This document shows, piece after piece, positions 45,342 to 55,025 of a stretch of DNA of 62,756 nt (positions are counted from its first letter, which is position 1; the number at the start of each line of letters is the position of its first letter). The stretch covers positions 1 to 62,756 of the forward strand of contig JAGYOX010000002.1 in assembly GCA_018399235.1 (NCBI GenBank), given 5' to 3'. Source of the stretch: Desulfobacterales bacterium. Lineage in GTDB: Bacteria; Desulfobacterota; Desulfobacteria; Desulfobacterales; Desulfosalsimonadaceae. The notes under the pieces are model-generated. The model saw only the letters and a list, made by a program, of their open reading frames with translations. It did no database searches and was not told the origin of the DNA. The translations under genes were made by a program, and so were the position numbers.

Positions 45342-46607
45342 TTACTCTCTCAATTGAGCGGCCAGGGCCTTTATTTCCGTTAAATCCCGCTGCATAGCGC
45401 TCCATCCATACCAGATGGTGTAATCGGGATTGGCATGAAAAGCACCCTGGAAGGTACGCATTCGGTGTTTTAAGAACATGATGAAAAGCTTCTGCTCAAT
45501 CACTGTAGGGGCGTCATGAAAGGTTAAAAGATCCGGAAACGGGTAGGAATAATTTTCCGGCTTTTCCAAAAGCCCATCCTTGTAAAGACCGGCAACTGTT
45601 CGAATCGCCTGTGCCATCAGGTGATCCGCCTCGCGGATCATCTGGTCGGCCTTATGAAGCTCCTGCTTGGCAAAATTACTCGAATGGCACTTGCCGCACA
45701 CGGCAAGCATTTCATCCCTTTCAGACTGCCAATCCTCCTGGGTCAGCCTTGCGACATCCGCTTTTTTGACGACATCCAGACGGGCTGTGGGATTGCCATC
45801 CGGATCCAGCACCCCAAGGGCCTGAAGAATGGTCGTCCGGTCCTTGGCCCACTGTTCATCTTCAGGCATGGGCAGACGAACCGCTAAAAACCCCCAGGCG
45901 GTTCGAACCGCGTGATTCCCCGCATCCATATGGCAGGTCTGGCAGGTGGGGGCGGCCACATCCTCAGGCAGCTTCCCAACCTGCTTTAAAAGGTATCTTA
46001 CCCCGTGCTTAGAGGATTCATACATCTCCCACTGGGGATGATCCATACCCATGTGGCAGGTCCGGCATGCCTGGGGCTGCCTGGCCTCTTCCTTAGAAAA
46101 CACATGGCGGGTATGGCATACGTCACAGGAGGCCAATCCAAAACCGGGGCTGTCCTTTTTAAGCTCCCGGATCTCCTCTTCGGATTTAAGCCCCTGTTTA
46201 TGGCATGCGCCGCAGCCCTTCAACCCCTCTGTCAGCCCCATCGGCTGCCAATGGATGGTGGGCATGGCCTTCATGGCCGCCCATGCCAGGGCATGTTTTC
46301 CCTGTTTGAACTGTTCCGCCTGAGTCCTGTGGCACATGGCGCATCTATCCAATGTAGCAAGCTTCGCCTTTTCAACATCATCGGCGGCCATATGGTCTCT
46401 GCCGTGGCAGGTTATGCAGGACACGTTTACCTCACTATGACGGCTAAGCTGCCAGTCCTTTACAATCTGTGGCGTCTCCTTGGTATGGCAGTTAAGGCAC
46501 GCGTCGTTTGGGGAGGCGTCGTCATCGGCAGCTGCAGACATGGGCAAGAATGAAGCTATAAAAAAAAGCAAAATTAAAAACGGCAGGCTAAAACGGATCG
46601 GTTTCAT
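45342..46607 (-). CDS. Octaheme cytochrome c of the hydroxylamine oxidoreductase family
   Basis: A 421-residue periplasmic multiheme cytochrome with a cleavable signal peptide (hydrophobic residues 7-24, ending SAAA). Eight CxxCH motifs are present (CLNCH, CITCH, CAMCH, CGACH, CDVCH, CRTCH, CQTCH, CGKCH). The C-terminal GAFHANPDYTIWYGW is a landmark of the HAO/octaheme nitrite-hydroxylamine reductase group. Start ATG 46607 has GGAG 10 nt upstream; the longer frame to 46763 lies in repeat DNA. Family members in anaerobes act as hydroxylamine or nitrite reductases; whether the tyrosine cross-link of true oxidases is present cannot be settled here. No dedicated quinol dehydrogenase gene is adjacent. 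Confidence 0.92.
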   Translation of the reverse strand: MKPIRFSLPFLILLFFIASFLPMSAAADDDASPNDACLNCHTKETPQIVKDWQLSRHSEVNVSCITCHGRDHMAADDVEKAKLATLDRCAMCHRTQAEQFKQGKHALAWAAMKAMPTIHWQPMGLTEGLKGCGACHKQGLKSEEEIRELKKDSPGFGLASCDVCHTRHVFSKEEARQPQACRTCHMGMDHPQWEMYESSKHGVRYLLKQVGKLPEDVAAPTCQTCHMDAGNHAVRTAWGFLAVRLPMPEDEQWAKDRTTILQALGVLDPDGNPTARLDVVKKADVARLTQEDWQSERDEMLAVCGKCHSSNFAKQELHKADQMIREADHLMAQAIRTVAGLYKDGLLEKPENYSYPFPDLLTFHDAPTVIEQKLFIMFLKHRMRTFQGAFHANPDYTIWYGWSAMQRDLTEIKALAAQLRE

Positions 46608-46658
46608 TTTATTTTTCTCCTGAAAGGAATGGGAGTTAAAAACCGAAATGACAATATT

Positions 46659-46688
46659 TGTATATCTCATGAATGGAACAGATGTCAA
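46659..46688 (-). promoter_or_regulatory. Candidate sigma70 promoter for octaheme cytochrome
   Basis: On the minus strand TTGACA (46683-46688) and TATACA (46659-46664) are separated by 18 bp, about 52 bp before the start codon. The -35 box lies 3 bp from the end of a TIR repeat, so the insertion fixes what lies upstream. Confidence 0.45.
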
Positions 46689-46691
46689 TAT

Positions 46692-46845
46692 TGACAGTCT
46701 CGTAAAAAGTCGATTTTGAGATGGCAAAGTAAAAAGTTCAAGATCAAGGCGCGCAAATCCCAAGAAATGCAGCGTACTTAGCTGTACGTGAAATTTCGAG
46801 GGATGCAGCGCAACACAGATATTGGACTTTTTACGAAGCCATCAA
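46692..46845. repeat. MITE-like repeat, TIR family, copy 2
   Basis: Left end TGACAGTCTCGTAAAAAGT at 46692-46710 is identical to copy 1; the interior matches with a short deletion; the right end (GACTTTTTACGAAGCCATCAA) is a diverged variant. ATAT occurs directly outside both ends and could be a target duplication. Confidence 0.85.
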
Positions 46846-47150: not shown

Positions 47151-49289
47151 ATGGACACAATATGCCAGGATAGAACCATGTGCGGACACGTGGGCGCCTC
47201 CCATATCGGCCGCCAGGTGGTTCTGGCCGGATGGGTCGATGCATTAAGGGATCATGGCGAGGTGCTTTTCATCCACCTGCGTGACCAAAGCGGCATCGTG
47301 CAGGTGATATTTAGTCCGGAATTCACGGAAAAGACCGTATGCGAGCAGGCCGGACACCTGAGAAACGAATTCTGCGTACGTATTAACGGCCGGGTAATGG
47401 AACGGTCGCCAGGCACGGAAAACCCTCATATCTCCACCGGAAACGTGGAGGTGAATGCATCGGAGCTGAAGATCCTGAACCGATCAAAAACCCCGCCGTT
47501 TCCCATATCGGAAAAATCCATGCTGGCCGGAATCCCTGTAAGACAGGATCATAATGTAACCGAAGACCTGAGGCTCCAATACCGTTACCTGGACCTGCGC
47601 CGGCCGTCCATGCAGGAAAATCTTATCAAACGGCACGCCATTGCCCGAACCATCCGCAATTTTCTGGACGAGAACGGCTTTATTGAGGTCGAAACCCCCA
47701 TGTTAACCCGGAGCACGCCGGAAGGGGCGCGGGACTATATCGTGCCCAGCCGCCATCACCCCCGCACCTTTTACGCCCTGCCCCAGTCTCCCCAGTTGTT
47801 TAAACAGCTGCTTATGGTTGGCGGCGTTGAGCGTTATTACCAAATCGTCCGGTGTTTCCGGGATGAGGATCTGCGCCCCAACCGCCAGCCGGAATTCACC
47901 CAGCTCGATCTGGAAGCCGCATTTATCGACGAGGAATTCATTTACCGGATCTTCGAAGAGCTGACAACGCAGATGTTTGCCATAGGCGGCATTGAACTGC
48001 CCCGGCCCTTTGCCCGAATGACCTGGACCAATGCCATGAATACCGCGGGAAGCGACCGGCCCGACCTGCGATTCGACATGACCTTTATGGATGTCACGGA
48101 CGTTTTTACGGATACAAACTATGCCATTTTTAAACAAATTCTGGACCGGGGCGGATGCATCAAGGGCATTAACGTAAAGGGACAGTCCGGCCGTCTTAGC
48201 AAAAATATCCTGCAAAACGAATATGCCAAAGAGATCGTGCCGGGTTTCGGCGCCCGGGGCATGACCTGGATGCGGGTAACCGATGCCGGCCTGGAAAGCA
48301 ATATTGTCCAATTTTTCAGCAAAAAAGAACAGGAAGAGATCTTGCGCCGATTCGGCGCTGAAACAAACGATGTGATCCTGATGATCGCCGACCCATCCTG
48401 GCACTTGGTCTGCACGGCCCTGGGCCAGCTCCGCCTGCACCTGGCCCGCCGGCTTGACCTGATCCCCGGGGACGTTTACAAACCCCTGTGGGTGACGGAT
48501 TTCCCTTTATTTGAAGCCGCGGATACGGGCGTCACCTCCAGCCACCACCCCTTTACCATGCCGGATAAAACCGACTTTGACCCCAAGGATACAGACGAAC
48601 TGCTGTCCTTGAAATCCCGGGCCTATGATCTCGTGGTAAACGGCGAGGAACTCGGCGGCGGCAGCATCCGTATCAATGACCGGGATCTGCAGGACAAGAT
48701 TTTCAAGGCCCTGGGCCTGTCCCAAGCGGATGTGGGGGAAAAATTCGGATTTTTTCTTCAAGCCCTGGAATACGGGGCGCCGCCGCATGGCGGCATGGCT
48801 TTGGGCCTGGACAGGGTCATAGCCATGATTTTATCTGCCCGCTCCATCCGGGAGGTCATTGCTTTTCCCAAAAACCGAAGCGCCTTCTGTCCACTAACAC
48901 AGGCGCCGGCCCCGGTCTCCAGGGAACAACTGGCCGAACTGGAACTGCTCGACATAAAGGGCGGCGAAGCGCTTCCCGGCGCGGGACGACAAAAAGACCT
49001 TATGGCGTCTTTATCCTGGGTGTCACGCATCGGCATTGAAGAAGCGGAACGTGAGGAAATCCGCACTGCCGTTGAACAGGCAAAAATCCTGGCCGAAAGG
49101 GTCAAGCAGGCGGCCTTAGAAAACGGCGGAAAGTCAGCCGAGCCTCTGTTTTGCGTACTGCCGGCAGCCAACCGGTTCCGCGCCGGCAAAACAGCCAAGG
49201 TCTGCCAATTGTCGGAAGGCAATGATCTATTGAAAAACGCCCCCGCAGTCAAGGGGGGATATTTTAAAGTCGCATCGGTTCTTGAATAA
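47151..49289 (+). CDS. aspS: Aspartyl-tRNA synthetase fused to GatC
   Basis: A 712-residue fusion. Residues 1 to about 610 are a full bacterial class II AspRS: OB-fold anticodon domain (GWVDALRDHGEVLFIHLRD), the catalytic core with QSPQLFKQLLM, motif 2 FRDEDLRPNRQPEFTQLDLE, the GAD insertion and motif 3 GLDRVIAMI. H35 in RDHG is the residue type reported for non-discriminating AspRS. Residues about 615-712 match GatC end to end: WVSRIGIEEAEREEI at the start and NAPAVKGGYFKVASVLE at the end. Normal AspRS stops near 600 and GatC is a separate protein of about 95 residues. AAAGGAT precedes the ATG. Followed 14 bp later by a gatA homologue and gatB. Probably charges tRNA-Asn with Asp and tethers the amidotransferase. 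Confidence 0.93.
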   Translation: MDTICQDRTMCGHVGASHIGRQVVLAGWVDALRDHGEVLFIHLRDQSGIVQVIFSPEFTEKTVCEQAGHLRNEFCVRINGRVMERSPGTENPHISTGNVEVNASELKILNRSKTPPFPISEKSMLAGIPVRQDHNVTEDLRLQYRYLDLRRPSMQENLIKRHAIARTIRNFLDENGFIEVETPMLTRSTPEGARDYIVPSRHHPRTFYALPQSPQLFKQLLMVGGVERYYQIVRCFRDEDLRPNRQPEFTQLDLEAAFIDEEFIYRIFEELTTQMFAIGGIELPRPFARMTWTNAMNTAGSDRPDLRFDMTFMDVTDVFTDTNYAIFKQILDRGGCIKGINVKGQSGRLSKNILQNEYAKEIVPGFGARGMTWMRVTDAGLESNIVQFFSKKEQEEILRRFGAETNDVILMIADPSWHLVCTALGQLRLHLARRLDLIPGDVYKPLWVTDFPLFEAADTGVTSSHHPFTMPDKTDFDPKDTDELLSLKSRAYDLVVNGEELGGGSIRINDRDLQDKIFKALGLSQADVGEKFGFFLQALEYGAPPHGGMALGLDRVIAMILSARSIREVIAFPKNRSAFCPLTQAPAPVSREQLAELELLDIKGGEALPGAGRQKDLMASLSWVSRIGIEEAEREEIRTAVEQAKILAERVKQAALENGGKSAEPLFCVLPAANRFRAGKTAKVCQLSEGNDLLKNAPAVKGGYFKVASVLE

Positions 49290-49303: not shown

Positions 49304-50527
49304 ATGGATTCCGATCTTTTCACCCATCAACCCGCATCTCCCCTGCAGGAGACGCCGGACGGCCCCTTGGCCGGAAAAGAAATACTGATTCAACCCGATC
49401 TTTCCGTACAGGACTGGCTTACGGATTCCGGATGCAAAGCTTTGACCGGTTTTCATGCGGTCATGGATGCAACCACCGTGACCCGTCTGAAGGCCGCAGG
49501 CGCCTGCCTGGCCGGCAACACCCGCATGGCGGAACTGGGACTCGGAATAAACGACAATACCATGGCGCGCGCCCTCTGCGCCGGCCATGGTCATTTGGGT
49601 CTGGTGACGGACCTTCTGGGCGAAGCCCGTATGACTGCCTGCCTTGCCGGTTGCTATGGGTTCAAGCCTTCTTACGGGTTGGTTTCGCGCGCCGGTCTGG
49701 TGGGCTTGGTGCCCTCCATGGAATGCACCGGGTTTCTGGCCCCCACGCCCGAAGAGATAACCACTGCCCTTGGGGTCGTGGCCGGACCGGATGAAGCCGA
49801 TTATTCCATGTCCCCGGATCCAATCCCGACTATAACCCCCACGGAGATTTCCGGCCATGCGCCAAACCGAATCGGCGTACCCCGCGAAATCCGGCAGTAT
49901 CTGTCAACATCCGCACAAAATGTTTTTTTTGCCGCCCTTGAGCAGGCGGCCCAGGCCGGATTTGACGTTCAGGAGATAGACCTGCCCGGCTTTGATCTGT
50001 TCGCCGCCGCACACCAGGTCATCGCCTCAGTGGAAGCATCCTCTTCCTGCGGCAAATATGATGGGGTCCGCTACGGGTTTCGGACAGAAGACGCCCAAAA
50101 TTGGAACGAGATGTACCTTCAATCCCGAAGCCAGTCATTCGGCTGTCGAATCAAGTCCTTTTTGTTCCAGGGCGCCTACTTCCAGTTCGAAAATTACGCG
50201 GCCTTTGAAAATGCCTGCGCCCTGAGGCAGAAACTGGTGAATCAGCTTAATCATCGGTTCGAATCGATTCCGCTGCTGGCCCTGCCCACCCGCCTGCCCC
50301 ATGCGGACCCCGGCCGGGCAGACACCGTCGAGGAGACCTATGCCGCTTTTGGGCTGACCCTGCCGGCCAACCTAGCCGGATTGCCCGCCCTTTGCATACC
50401 CGGCATGGTCTGTGAGGGCGAAACCGATCTCGGCCTGCAGCTCATGGGGCCCCTTATGACAGACGCACAGGTACTGGCCGCCGGTCAAAAAATATATACC
50501 CGCATCCAGGGAGACGGAAACAAATGA
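49304..50527 (+). CDS. GatA homologue lacking the glutaminase catalytic triad
   Basis: A 407-residue protein, shorter than GatA (about 485). Homology is clear in DATTVTRLKAAGACLAGNT, GFKPSYGLVSRAGLVGLVPS, SSSCGKYDGVRYGFR and LPANLAGLPALCIPG. The amidase triad is gone: the Lys of the usual IKDN is Q30 in LIQPDL, the GGSSGGS segment with the cis-Ser is deleted, and the nucleophile Ser of TGGSIR is E108 in LGEAR. It cannot hydrolyse glutamine by the known mechanism. The frame is undamaged, GC use matches its neighbours, and the 4-bp overlap with gatB is tidy, so it looks selected, not decaying. Roles to consider: structural partner of GatB, use of free ammonia, or another nitrogen donor. Confidence 0.88.
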   Translation: MDSDLFTHQPASPLQETPDGPLAGKEILIQPDLSVQDWLTDSGCKALTGFHAVMDATTVTRLKAAGACLAGNTRMAELGLGINDNTMARALCAGHGHLGLVTDLLGEARMTACLAGCYGFKPSYGLVSRAGLVGLVPSMECTGFLAPTPEEITTALGVVAGPDEADYSMSPDPIPTITPTEISGHAPNRIGVPREIRQYLSTSAQNVFFAALEQAAQAGFDVQEIDLPGFDLFAAAHQVIASVEASSSCGKYDGVRYGFRTEDAQNWNEMYLQSRSQSFGCRIKSFLFQGAYFQFENYAAFENACALRQKLVNQLNHRFESIPLLALPTRLPHADPGRADTVEETYAAFGLTLPANLAGLPALCIPGMVCEGETDLGLQLMGPLMTDAQVLAAGQKIYTRIQGDGNK

Positions 50528-51972
50528 ATCCGGATATAAACAAATATGAAGCGGTCATCGGCCTTGAAATCCATGTGCAGCTCAATACGGCCACCAAACT
50601 GTTCTGTGACTGCCCCAATCAGCCCGGGGACGCCCCCAACCGCAACACGTGCCCGGTCTGCCTCTGGCTGCCCGGGGCCCTGCCCCGGCTTTCCGCCGAA
50701 GCGGTTGAAAAGGCGGTGCTGGGATGCCTGGCCGCCAACTGCACCATTGCCGAAGAAAGCGCATTTGACCAGAAGGTCTACTATTATCCAGACCTGCCCA
50801 AGGGGTTTCAGCTGTCCCAGCACCACAAGCCCCTGGCCGTAAACGGGTGGATCGATATTATCGGCGAAAGCGGGGAGACCCGGCGCCTTGGCATCCACCA
50901 CATCCACATGGAAGAAGACGTGGCCAAGCTGGTCCATGAAACCGAGGGGAGAACGCCCATCAGCCTGGTCGATTTCAACCGGGCGGGCGCGCCGCTGATT
51001 GAAATCGTCACCGAACCGGATATGAAAAGTCCTTATGAGGCCATGGAATTTTTAAAGGCCCTGCGCACCCGTCTGCGCTATACCGGCTGTACAGAGTGCA
51101 GCATGGAACAGGGTACAATGCGGGCCGATGCCAATATCTCCCTGCGCCCGGCGGGCAGCGACACGCTGAACACAAAGGTAGAAGTCAAAAATATGAATTC
51201 CATTCACCACGTGGGCGATGCCATTGCTTACGAAATCCGGCGTCAGGCCGAATGCCTGGAACGGGGCGAACCCGTCACCCTGCATACGCGGCTGTGGGAT
51301 CCGGACAAGCGTGTCACCACCCCCATGCGTGAAAAATTTGCCGGCCCCTGCGTGCCCGATCCGTCAGTGCCCGCTATCCGAATGGATCCGGCGTGGCTGG
51401 AAAAAATCCGGCAGCGGCTACCGGAAATGCCGTCCCAAAAAACCGACCGGTTCATGGCCGACTATGGGCTGCCGGCAAGTGAAGCTTTTGCCATGAGCCA
51501 GGAACGGGATCTGGCAGAGTTTTTCGAAGCTGCAGTCAAACAAAACGTAATCCCGCGCAAGGCTGCCTCCTGGATCAGCGGCCATTTGACCCCGGCCCTC
51601 AAGGAACGGGGCCAGACCCTGGCCGATACCTGCCTGACCCCTGAACGTTTTGCGGATCTGCTTCTGTTGCTTGATCAGGAAAAAATCAATGCCGTGGCCG
51701 CCCGCGAAGTGCTGATTCAGATACTCGAAAAAAAGGACTCCCCTGAAAAAATTGTCAGTCTGGGCGGGTTTGAACAAGTATCAGATGTGGAAAAACTCGA
51801 GACCATTGTGGATGCCATCCTAACCGAGCATCCTGATGATGTCGCCGATTATCAGAAAGGCAATTCCAAGGTACTCGGTTTTTTCATGGGGCTGGCCATG
51901 AAGGCCTCCCAAGGAAAGGCCAACCCCAAACGCCTTAAAGAAATTCTGTCCAAACGGCTCAATAGTAACTGA
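50524..51972 (+). CDS. gatB: Asp-tRNA(Asn)/Glu-tRNA(Gln) amidotransferase subunit B
   Basis: A 482-residue GatB that phosphorylates the aminoacyl-tRNA side chain and adds ammonia. Active-site segments VIGLEIHVQL, YYYPDLPKGFQLSQ, HMEEDVAKLVHE, FNRAGAPLIEIVTEPD and VEVKNMNSIHHVGDAI are kept, and the C-terminal YqeY-like tRNA-binding tail is present. It is divergent from typical GatB: CPVCLWLPGALPRLS instead of LGLPGALPVLN, and the usual YRYFPDPDLPP is replaced by AGPCVPDPSVPAI. The ATG overlaps the gatA stop as ATGA. The kinase part looks functional, which makes the loss of glutaminase residues in its partner striking. Confidence 0.92.
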   Translation: MNPDINKYEAVIGLEIHVQLNTATKLFCDCPNQPGDAPNRNTCPVCLWLPGALPRLSAEAVEKAVLGCLAANCTIAEESAFDQKVYYYPDLPKGFQLSQHHKPLAVNGWIDIIGESGETRRLGIHHIHMEEDVAKLVHETEGRTPISLVDFNRAGAPLIEIVTEPDMKSPYEAMEFLKALRTRLRYTGCTECSMEQGTMRADANISLRPAGSDTLNTKVEVKNMNSIHHVGDAIAYEIRRQAECLERGEPVTLHTRLWDPDKRVTTPMREKFAGPCVPDPSVPAIRMDPAWLEKIRQRLPEMPSQKTDRFMADYGLPASEAFAMSQERDLAEFFEAAVKQNVIPRKAASWISGHLTPALKERGQTLADTCLTPERFADLLLLLDQEKINAVAAREVLIQILEKKDSPEKIVSLGGFEQVSDVEKLETIVDAILTEHPDDVADYQKGNSKVLGFFMGLAMKASQGKANPKRLKEILSKRLNSN

Positions 51973-52022: not shown

Positions 52023-52796
52023 TCAATCTTTGGACCAGTGCACAGGAACGCCGCGCTTTTTCAGGTAGGCCTTTAACTCGCCGATGCCAATCATACCGAA
52101 ATGAAAAACAGAGGCGGCAAGCAGAATCGTCGCCCCGGCCTCTACCGCCTCATAAAAATGCTCGGGTTCCCCGGCCCCGCCGGATGCCACTATTTCGGCG
52201 GAAACGGCCTGTTTCATGGCCCGGATCACCGGCAGGTCGTACCCGGTGCGGGCGCCGTCGCCAGCTTTGCTGGTGGGCAGGATCACGGGCACCCCATACC
52301 CATCCACGCGTTTGGCCCACTCTATGGCATCCATACCCGTGGCCGTTCTTCCGCCATCGATATAAACTTCGTAGCCCGAGGCCATAGCCGGATTCTGATC
52401 CACGTCAATGGCCACAGTCACCCTATCGGCACCCAAGGCCTTTACCATCTCCGGGATCAACTCCGGCTTTCGAAAAGCGGCACTGCTAGTGGAAACCTTG
52501 TCCGCACCGGCTTTCAATATCATTTCGGCGGATTTCACATCCGAGACCCCGCCACCCACCGTAAAGGGCACGGTTGCAACTTCCGCTACGCGCTGGACTA
52601 CATCAAGCATTGTGGCCCGGCCTTCTACGGTAGCCGTGATATCCAGCAAGCCCAGTTCATCAGCACCAGCTTCGCAATAAGCTCTTGCGCATTCCACCGG
52701 ATCGCCGGCATCCCTTATATCGACAAAGTGCACGCCCTTGACTACACGTCCGTTTTGCATATCCAGGCACGGCATGATTCGAATCGTCTGATCCAT
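52023..52796 (-). CDS. hisF: Imidazole glycerol phosphate synthase cyclase subunit (HisF)
   Basis: A 257-residue TIM-barrel enzyme for histidine biosynthesis, using ammonia from HisH and PRFAR. The catalytic Asp in IMPCLDMQNGRVVKG near residue 11 and the second in VAIDVD near residue 135 are present; phosphate-binding GGGVSD and ASGGAGEPEHF occur. The usual LTSMDRDGT loop reads LPTSKAGDGART, a noticeable departure. No hisH or other his gene is adjacent, so it could be a HisF paralogue, but overall length and motifs favour HisF. It converges on gatB. Confidence 0.85.
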   Translation of the reverse strand: MDQTIRIMPCLDMQNGRVVKGVHFVDIRDAGDPVECARAYCEAGADELGLLDITATVEGRATMLDVVQRVAEVATVPFTVGGGVSDVKSAEMILKAGADKVSTSSAAFRKPELIPEMVKALGADRVTVAIDVDQNPAMASGYEVYIDGGRTATGMDAIEWAKRVDGYGVPVILPTSKAGDGARTGYDLPVIRAMKQAVSAEIVASGGAGEPEHFYEAVEAGATILLAASVFHFGMIGIGELKAYLKKRGVPVHWSKD

Positions 52797-53862: not shown

Positions 53863-54743
53863 ATGAGTGATACACCCGAAGAATCCACCCAACATCTCTA
53901 CCAGCAGATCAAAGACCTTCTCATTCAAGCCAAGTCCAAGGCGTTGCAGGCAGTCAACACCGAGATGGTGGTGTCTTACTGGCACATTGGGCGGTTGATT
54001 GTTGAAGAGGAGCAGCGCGGAGAAGAGCGAGCTGAATATGGGGAGTACCTTATAAAAGACTTATCTAAGCGTTTGACTGAGGAGTTTGGAAAAGGGTTTT
54101 CTTTATCAAACCTGAAATATTTCAGACAGTTTTATCTGTCCTTCGCAATTGGCCACGCAGTGCGTGACCAATTCCCGGATGAAGAACCGGTTAATAGCAT
54201 TTCTGATCATAAATCATATCTCCACGAAAAAAGTCACTCAACGCGTGGCCAATTACCGGTTATTCGACCTGAACTTACCTGGACTCATTATCGCCTGCTA
54301 TTAAAGGTTGAAATGGCAGAAGCGCGCTCTTTTTATATGACTGAAGCGGTGAATGCCCGCTGGTCCACCCGCGAGCTGGAACGGCAGATCAATTCACTGC
54401 TGTTCGAGCGGCTGGCGCTCTCAAGGGACAAAGAGGGTATCAGGGAACTGGTTGAAAAAGGCCACGACGTTCAGAAGGCCATTGATTTGGTCAAAGATCC
54501 TTATGTGTTGGAATTTGCAGGACTTCCGCAGCAAAGTCGGCTCTTGGAGAAAGACCTGGAAAGCGCCCTGATTGACAAGCTGCAGCAGTTTCTTTTGGAG
54601 TTGGGCAAGGGTTTTGCCTTTATGGCCCGACAACAGCGGATCAGTCTTGATGATAAGCATTTTTATATTGACCCTGGTGTTTTACAACCGCTTGACCCGA
54701 AGTTTTGTGTTGATCGACTTGAAGGTGGGGGAGTTGAAACATC
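53863..54743 (+). pseudogene. Frameshifted DUF1016 (YhcG-type PD-(D/E)XK nuclease) gene
   Basis: The frame matches the DUF1016 family from the start: an N-terminal domain with VVSYWHIGRLIVEEEQRG and SLSNLKYFRQFYLSF, then RPELTWTHYRLLLKVEM and FMARQQRISLDDKHFYID. After FYID (about 54672) an extra C in a CCC run shifts the frame; the next frame gives LVFYNRLTRSFVLIDLKVGE, the nuclease core with the catalytic Asp and Lys. The gene then stops matching at about 54743, losing the last 60 or so residues, and cas1 sequence follows. If unrepaired, no nuclease is made. It lies 16 bp after the cas6e stop, inside a cas operon, so was probably an inserted defence gene. Confidence 0.85.
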
Positions 54744-55025
54744 TATCAATCCAAATCAGCGCTTGATGGAGAGCTGTGTTTGAAAGTGGTACGCAGAATG
54801 TTTGAGATCCGTTTTGGTGAAAAACCGCCGGATCGGCGAAGCGTAGATCAGTTGCGGGGAATTGAAGGCGCCCGGGTCAAAAAAATGTATGAACTTTTGG
54901 CAAAGCAGTATGGCGTCCCTTGGAAGGCCGACGTTATGATCCCAAACAGTGGGAGGCCGGTGATCTTCCGAATAAGTGCCTGAGTGCCGCCACTTCCTGT
55001 CTGTATGGGGTAACCGAAGCGGCGA
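54744..55025 (+). pseudogene. Cas1 (type I-E) internal remnant
   Basis: Two frames together give LKVVRRMFEIRFGEKPPDRR, then VDQLRGIEGARVKKMYELL and AKQYGVPWKA, and after a one-base shift near 54925 RRYDPKQWEAGDLPNKCLSA and ATSCLYGVTEAAIL. This is the central part of type I-E Cas1, including the RGIEGARV motif with the conserved catalytic-domain Glu. The N-terminal half is missing, joined to the DUF1016 fragment, and the rest ends before the following segment that normally carries the catalytic His and Asp. A strong hairpin follows. No cas2, cas3, Cascade genes or CRISPR array are visible. Confidence 0.88.

Follow-up and report, generated by a model that had tools for sequence, protein, structure and literature searches.

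What would a GatA homologue that seems to have lost its glutaminase active site contribute to the operon in which it lies next to gatB? The question is raised by a gene of a Desulfobacterales bacterium (Desulfosalsimonadaceae; subsequently designated the host), which is located on contig JAGYOX010000002.1 of assembly GCA_018399235.1. Positions 1 to 62,756 of the forward strand of this contig were analyzed, a stretch of 62,756 nucleotides that is referred to as the window. The reading that we favor, and to which we give about as much belief as doubt, is that the gene belongs to a dedicated Asp-tRNA amidotransferase, i.e. a fused asparagine transamidosome that is fed with ammonia and makes none of its own.

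Results

The GatA homologue is encoded between an AspRS-GatC fusion and GatB

Three genes follow each other head to tail on the + strand of the window, encoding an AspRS-GatC fusion (AspRS2-GatC), the GatA homologue (psGatA) and a GatB protein (GatB2):

47151-49289, + strand: AspRS2-GatC (712 aa); AspRS of bacterial type including a GAD domain (residues 1 to ~600), followed by a C-terminal GatC domain
49038-49286, + strand: GatC domain of AspRS2-GatC, residues ~630-712 (Pfam GatC; family profile against PDB)
49304-50527, + strand: psGatA, predicted glutaminase-dead GatA homologue, 407 aa, ATG start
50524-51972, + strand: GatB2 (482 aa), with GatB catalytic and YqeY domains (TIGR00133, Pfam GatB_N, GatB_Yqey)

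The psGatA frame is open, 14 bp separate its start from the stop codon of AspRS2-GatC, and its TGA stop and the GatB2 start codon overlap in the sequence ATGA. The initial annotation had described the gene as intact and coupled to an intact gatB, which agrees with the open frame, the overlap and the presence of the ATP/Mg2+ ligands in GatB2. The upstream AspRS-GatC fusion, which ties the unit to Asp-tRNA, was absent from that annotation.

psGatA has lost its active-site residues and kept the GatA fold

psGatA scores 172.2 bits with Pfam Amidase PF01425 (cut-off 27) and 233.8 bits with the gatA equivalog model TIGR00132, under its cut-off of 481.1 bits. Its top PDB sequence match is 3h0l_A, the GatA of A. 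aeolicus. The following positions of psGatA are relevant for catalysis or glutamine binding:

49391-49393, + strand: Q30, replacing the catalytic Lys (3h0l K72), from HMMER alignments and family alignment
49592-49597, + strand: site at which the cis-Ser segment (PGGSSGGS) is deleted, residues ~97-98, gap in 92/92
49622-49624, + strand: E107, replacing the nucleophilic Ser (3h0l S171), Glu in 92/92
50159-50161, + strand: F286, probably replacing the Arg that binds the carboxylate of glutamine; column placed partly via S. aureus R358
50348-50350, + strand: F349, probably replacing the glutamine-recognising Asp; column placed partly via S. aureus D425

In four HMMER alignments, all to GatA structures, 3h0l K72 falls on Q30 and 3h0l S171 on E107. 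The cis-Ser loop is gapped in the family alignment. The Lys to Gln exchange at residue 30 claimed by the initial annotation was thus borne out in four alignments; the Ser to Glu exchange stood as well, at residue 107 rather than 108. For a family-wide view, 92 distinct psGatA proteins were obtained from 106 sequences (the window, 25 further genomes and 80 contigs, with some genomes present in both sets), a collection that is silent on intermediates because it was recruited with the family's own sequences and motifs. The catalytic-Lys column of these proteins contains Gln 73 times, Glu 8, Arg 5, His 4, Trp and Pro once each, and Lys in none. Glu occupies the nucleophile column in 92/92 and the cis-Ser loop is gone in all of them, so that the deletion that had been claimed for the window is a family trait. 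Accordingly, 0/92 keep any residue of the Lys/cis-Ser/Ser triad of GatA and the amidase signature family, and the loss of glutaminase chemistry proposed in the initial annotation is supported as far as sequence can tell. Relocation of the catalytic residues to elsewhere in psGatA was ruled out, since neither the four alignments to GatA structures nor the 92-member alignment offers an alternative.

The columns of F286 and F349 were placed partly with residues R358 and D425 of S. aureus GatA, the glutamine-binding Arg and Asp. The former holds Tyr in 63, Phe in 24 and Leu in 4 proteins and one gap; the latter holds Phe in 80, Cys in 5, Leu in 3, Gly and Tyr in one each and two gaps, two rows being partial proteins. 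Both glutamine-binding residues are therefore probably replaced in psGatA, too. In yeast GatA, an Arg holds the glutamine carboxylate and an Asp recognises glutamine, according to PMC4027206.

An AlphaFold2 model of psGatA, built from 24 family members, reached a mean pLDDT of 89.8. It superposes on whole GatA chains, 3kfu_E (Z 44.7) and 3h0l_A (Z 44.5) being tied with 397-400 residues aligned; 4wj3_A gave Z 43.1. Because the model covers whole GatA chains, the fold is kept despite the lost active site. Model residue 1 falls on chain residue 31-36, i.e. ~30-35 N-terminal GatA residues are absent from psGatA.

The fused synthetase retains its catalytic positions

AspRS2-GatC matches the NCBI model PRK12820 for an AspRS-GatC fusion with 1175.5 bits, under the cut-off of 1379, over model positions 21-723 of 723; the fused gene is thus already known to annotators through this model. 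Pfam detected the tRNA-synt_2, GAD and OB-fold domains in AspRS2, and GatC on the tail with 20.3 bits, under the cut-off of 23. When a profile of 26 family tails was compared with the PDB, GatC chains made up the best four of six matches (2df4_C, E 2e-6).

Nine class II catalytic positions of the window AspRS2 are identical to those of ordinary AspRS, a comparison whose rows include L196, an unfused AspRS of AspRS2 type, and they are kept in 78/78 AspRS2 proteins long enough to check. A His and a Gly in the anticodon domain are the signature of non-discriminating AspRS, which charges tRNA(Asn). The His is present in 87/87 and the Gly in 86/89 ungapped AspRS2 rows. Ordinary AspRS has His in 21/21 and Gly in 17/21, with the host counted twice and one row misgrouped. 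Two AspRS of AspRS2 type, L196 (G080:C44) and L200 (G015:C89), are unfused, i.e. without the GatC tail, and 74-77% identical to the fused ones; L200 is a fragment with its 5' end cut off.

GatB2 keeps the ATP/Mg2+ ligands and carries new cysteines

GatB2 scores 506 bits with TIGR00133 (cut-off 314.8), and both Pfam GatB_N and GatB_Yqey were found in it. Its ATP/Mg2+ ligands are E15, H17, E131, E160, T163, N204 and S206, with roles taken from PMC4027206. The Glu, His, Glu, Glu, Asn and Ser ligands are kept in 88 or 89/89 GatB2 proteins, the sole exception being a gap; the T163 column contains Thr in 69 and Ser in 20. Canonical GatB and GatB2 disagree at 27 positions that are otherwise conserved. 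Among these is the KEEAHDYRY segment, rebuilt and three residues shorter in GatB2. Two of the new residues are cysteines:

51097-51099, + strand: C192 of GatB2, near-invariant new Cys (Gly in canonical GatB)
51349-51351, + strand: C276 of GatB2, near-invariant new Cys (Tyr in canonical GatB)

C192 is Cys in 87/89 GatB2 and Gly in 22/22 canonical GatB. C276, which resides in the rebuilt segment, is Cys in 86/89 (two gaps, one Thr) and Tyr in 22/22 canonical GatB, and both cysteines occur together in 84/89. A quick tree (109 rows) separated 87 GatB2 from 22 canonical GatB proteins of the carrier genomes by a branch with SH-aLRT 100, and GatB2 is therefore taken as an old paralogue.

These features bear on a different product. 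Asp on the tRNA could be activated in a GatB-like manner and then joined to another nucleophile, or processed via the two new cysteines, rather than converted to Asn-tRNA. We consider this unlikely, if the most serious of the competing readings: nearly all GatB2 have the two cysteines and none of the 22 canonical GatB does, the C276 segment is rebuilt and 27 sites differ, E107 of psGatA is invariant in 92 proteins and F349 kept in 80/92, and the carriers already possess AsnRS (25/26). However, the neighbourhood contains no conserved fourth gene to provide or consume such a product. Among 480 neighbouring ORFs of 87 loci, no family occurred in more than 6 loci, and the commonest, a HisF-like family, in 6/87.

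No T-box or other Rfam element was detected near the operon in the window. An Rfam scan of 12 carrier loci returned a cobalamin riboswitch on L057 (3010-3201) only, and a tRNA scan of 27 loci one tRNA-Glu. Several neighbours were recorded in addition. Within the window, they comprise:

45342-46763, - strand: multihaem cytochrome (Pfam Multi-haem_cyto, 90.9 bits), upstream of the operon on the opposite strand
52023-52796, - strand: histidine biosynthesis protein (PF00977, 228.6 bits), HisF-like by eye, converging on GatB2
53863-54783, + strand: DUF1016/YhcG nuclease-like ORF

The last gene may be cut short, since its YhcG_C match ends at position 62 of 157. At three other loci (L042:4983-5948, L048:5483-6475, L055:11404-12432), a GMP synthetase C-terminal-like protein is encoded near the operon, scoring 296-305 bits with TIGR00884 (cut-off 338.75). 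Its glutaminase domain is absent, making it another amidotransferase-like protein without glutaminase.

The operon is conserved and under selection

psGatA is encoded by 26/291 genomes of the order, the host included (subsequently designated carriers). A wider scan of genome contigs yielded 376 stretches encoding a relative, the best 80 of which were kept for analysis. Desulfobacterota or 'Deltaproteobacteria' predominate in the titles of these 80, with Desulfosarcina alkanivorans PL12, Desulfocicer vacuolatum DSM 3385 and Desulfatitalea alkaliphila as examples; Nitrospirota, Verrucomicrobia, Acidobacteria, Omnitrophota, Chloroflexi and further groups appear as well. Many of the records are metagenome bins and may be mislabelled.

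The window aside, the family comprises 91 unique loci. All three genes were found in 85 of them, and gene order and strand are identical in 85/85. In L063, L112, L115 and L126 the contig ends directly beside psGatA. L080 has two genes, one for a DUF3108 protein, between psGatA and a GatC-like tail that was judged by eye and has no Pfam hit. In L062 (genome G279) psGatA runs into the end of GatB through an internal deletion, and in L059 (G257, a one-contig genome) stop codons break AspRS2 and GatB2 while psGatA is open. The AspRS of L100 and the GatB of L130 are each split over two frames. As the operon is broken in G257 and G279, it is dispensable there.

dN/dS values (Nei-Gojobori) of psGatA were 0.17 and 0.23 against the congeners G240 and G221, respectively, and 0.10-0.14 for AspRS2-GatC and GatB2 against the same two genomes. 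Judged by these ratios, psGatA is under purifying selection. Between the three proteins, the distance matrices show correlations of r 0.85-0.92 over 70 loci, psGatA being the most divergent, and on this measure the three genes are co-inherited as a unit. The broken copies in G257 and G279 and the split frames in L100 and L130 are what one would expect of functionless, decaying leftovers of a duplicated aspS-gatCAB. Such decay would, however, hardly produce the same residue changes across 92 distinct proteins, dN/dS values of 0.10-0.23 for three genes against two congeners, and a family filed under records of several phyla, so that we regard it as highly improbable.

Most carriers possess further enzymes for Asn-tRNA synthesis

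The initial annotation raised the matter of a second, normal gatCAB. Indeed, contig C57 of the host carries an ordinary gatC-gatA and gatB, which rules out that the genome has no gatA other than that for psGatA; the operon is an extra unit beside them. The host also encodes a second, ordinary AspRS, AsnRS and GlnRS, the latter being its single match to PF00749 (class Ic synthetases). GluRS was not detected in the host assembly, which is 92.8% complete, and is probably missing from it; absences in the host are soft owing to this completeness and the lack of a detected GluRS. A search of the host for the ammonia-dependent asparagine synthetase AsnA found none, and the Asn synthetase domain gave three short matches (20-26.5 bits), of which a single one exceeds the 21-bit cut-off. 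Since AsnA was lacking and these matches were weak, the Asn of the host may derive from tRNA-dependent amidation.

Across the order, with ancestry ignored in all three comparisons, AsnRS is present in 25/26 carriers vs 209/265 other genomes (P 0.036), AsnA in 0/26 vs 33/265 (P(0) 0.038; two-sided Fisher 0.055), and the Asn synthetase domain, whose proteins include more than AsnB, in 18/26 vs 208/265 (P 0.32), i.e. without separation.

Canonical GatB was found in 22/26 carriers; TIGR00133 did not detect it in G160, G095, G234 and G287. Ordinary AspRS was likewise found in 22/26, and TIGR00459 (E 1e-60) did not detect it in G160, G095, G234 and G015. The sole AspRS detected in G160, G095 and G234 is of the operon type, both G095 pieces included, and G015 has a further, unfused AspRS of AspRS2 type. 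G160 encodes GlnRS, GluRS and AsnRS. The two absences coincide across carriers (Fisher P 0.006, or 0.0015 when G015 is left out of the carriers lacking ordinary AspRS), a coincidence that shared incompleteness can inflate, G160, G095 and G234 being 100, 95 and 90% complete. In certain species the operon may replace the ordinary AspRS and GatB, and in other species it may have been lost.

This pattern concerns two further explanations. GatB2 and AspRS2-GatC might borrow ammonia from a working glutaminase, e.g. canonical GatA, with psGatA acting as a stabiliser or docking piece; a normal gatC-gatA in the host and canonical GatB in 22/26 carriers would permit this. It strikes us as improbable, as psGatA would be expected to compete for the place of GatA on the same GatC and GatB2, and canonical GatA is doubtful in the four carriers without detected canonical GatB. 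Alternatively, the unit could act chiefly as a further AspRS, stabilised by a non-catalytic GatAB-like collar, with amidation weak or lost. No other AspRS was detected in G160, G095 and G234, and an unfused AspRS of the same type occurs in G080, a fragment of one in G015, both in line with this idea. A collar would, however, have no need for the ATP/Mg2+ ligands, which are kept in 88 or 89/89 GatB2 (Thr or Ser at T163), and we rate it as rather unlikely, only marginally ahead of the borrowed glutaminase.

Discussion

A putative ammonia-fed asparagine transamidosome

In the ammonia-fed Asp-tRNA amidotransferase that we favor, AspRS2-GatC, psGatA and GatB2 would form one complex. AspRS2 would load Asp onto the tRNA, and the fused GatC domain would tether the synthetase to psGatA and GatB2. 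GatB2 would phosphorylate the Asp side chain with ATP and then amidate it, presumably yielding Asn-tRNA, while psGatA would serve as a scaffold and partner of GatC and GatB2 that neither binds nor splits glutamine. Since psGatA is predicted to be unable to bind or split glutamine, the ammonia would have to be supplied by the solution or another enzyme. Free ammonia or another source, as the initial annotation had suggested, is thus the best, if unproven, reading of the psGatA unit. At the sequence level, this reading is supported by the conserved operon, the loss of glutaminase residues, the kept active-site residues of GatB and AspRS, selection and co-inheritance.

Also in favor of amidation are G160, G095 and G234, in which no AspRS or GatB beyond those of the operon was detected. 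The absence of AsnA from 26/26 carriers fits an ammonia-fed enzyme, though the statistics are weak. Yeast GatFAB was assayed with NH4Cl, and a truncation that weakened its glutaminase raised NH4Cl-driven transamidation, as described in PMC4027206, which supports that a GatB-type enzyme can use ammonium. On the other side of the balance are AsnRS in 25/26 carriers and ordinary GatB and ordinary AspRS in 22/26 each, the broken operons of G257 and G279 together with the split AspRS of L100 and GatB of L130, the divergence of GatB2 at 27 sites with its shortened KEEAHDYRY segment, and the failure of Asn synthetase domain proteins to separate carriers from the rest.

Relation to known systems

The unit resembles canonical GatCAB (A. 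aeolicus 3h0l, S. aureus 2df4) in the GatA fold, the GatC domain, the neighbouring arrangement of the genes, and a GatB with ATP/Mg2+ ligands and YqeY domain. It differs in that psGatA lacks Lys, cis-Ser and Ser, has its presumed glutamine-binding residues replaced and is ~30-35 residues shorter at the N-terminus, that GatC is fused to AspRS, and that GatB2 has a rebuilt KEEAHDYRY segment and new cysteines. The structures 3kfu (T. thermophilus) and 4wj3 (P. aeruginosa) are, to judge from their entry titles, asparagine transamidosomes in which AspRS and GatCAB form one unit. This is the arrangement proposed here, and the psGatA model fits 3kfu_E and 4wj3_A; in contrast, these transamidosomes have a separate GatC and a GatA with the residues that psGatA lost.

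Bdellovibrio with one AspRS and Clostridium acetobutylicum with an extra GatCAB are treated in passages of PMC4206432, which also states that bacterial GatCAB needs the U1-A72 pair of tRNA(Asn). Like the carriers, the systems covered there combine AsnRS with GatCAB, a possible second route to Asn-tRNA, but none in these passages is described with a GatA devoid of its active site or with an AspRS-GatC fusion. AsnA likewise uses ammonia rather than glutamine for the Asn amide, but it is another protein, acts on free instead of tRNA-bound Asp and occurs in 0/26 carriers. In a search of the open-access literature, we found no account of an active-site-less GatA in an AspRS-GatC operon. The initial annotation had named the system as a candidate for an undescribed one; this holds within that search and not for the fused AspRS-GatC gene, which PRK12820 models.

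We tentatively propose, at a confidence below that given to the ammonia-fed reading itself, that the family represents a widespread, glutamine-free branch of amidotransferases, in which AspRS, GatC, a scaffold GatA and a rebuilt GatB would make up a machine whose natural substrate is free ammonia, or which would produce a non-amide on tRNA-bound Asp via the two cysteines. In amidotransferases of the GatCAB type, an ammonia tunnel couples the glutaminase to the tRNA-modifying kinase, as outlined in PMC4027206. A conserved form that has apparently dispensed with the glutaminase asks what role the tunnel and GatA have beyond ammonia-making, and would provide a natural test. A GatA-like 'amidase' beside gatB can, by all appearances, be without amidase chemistry, which affects genome-based predictions of Asn and Gln routes.
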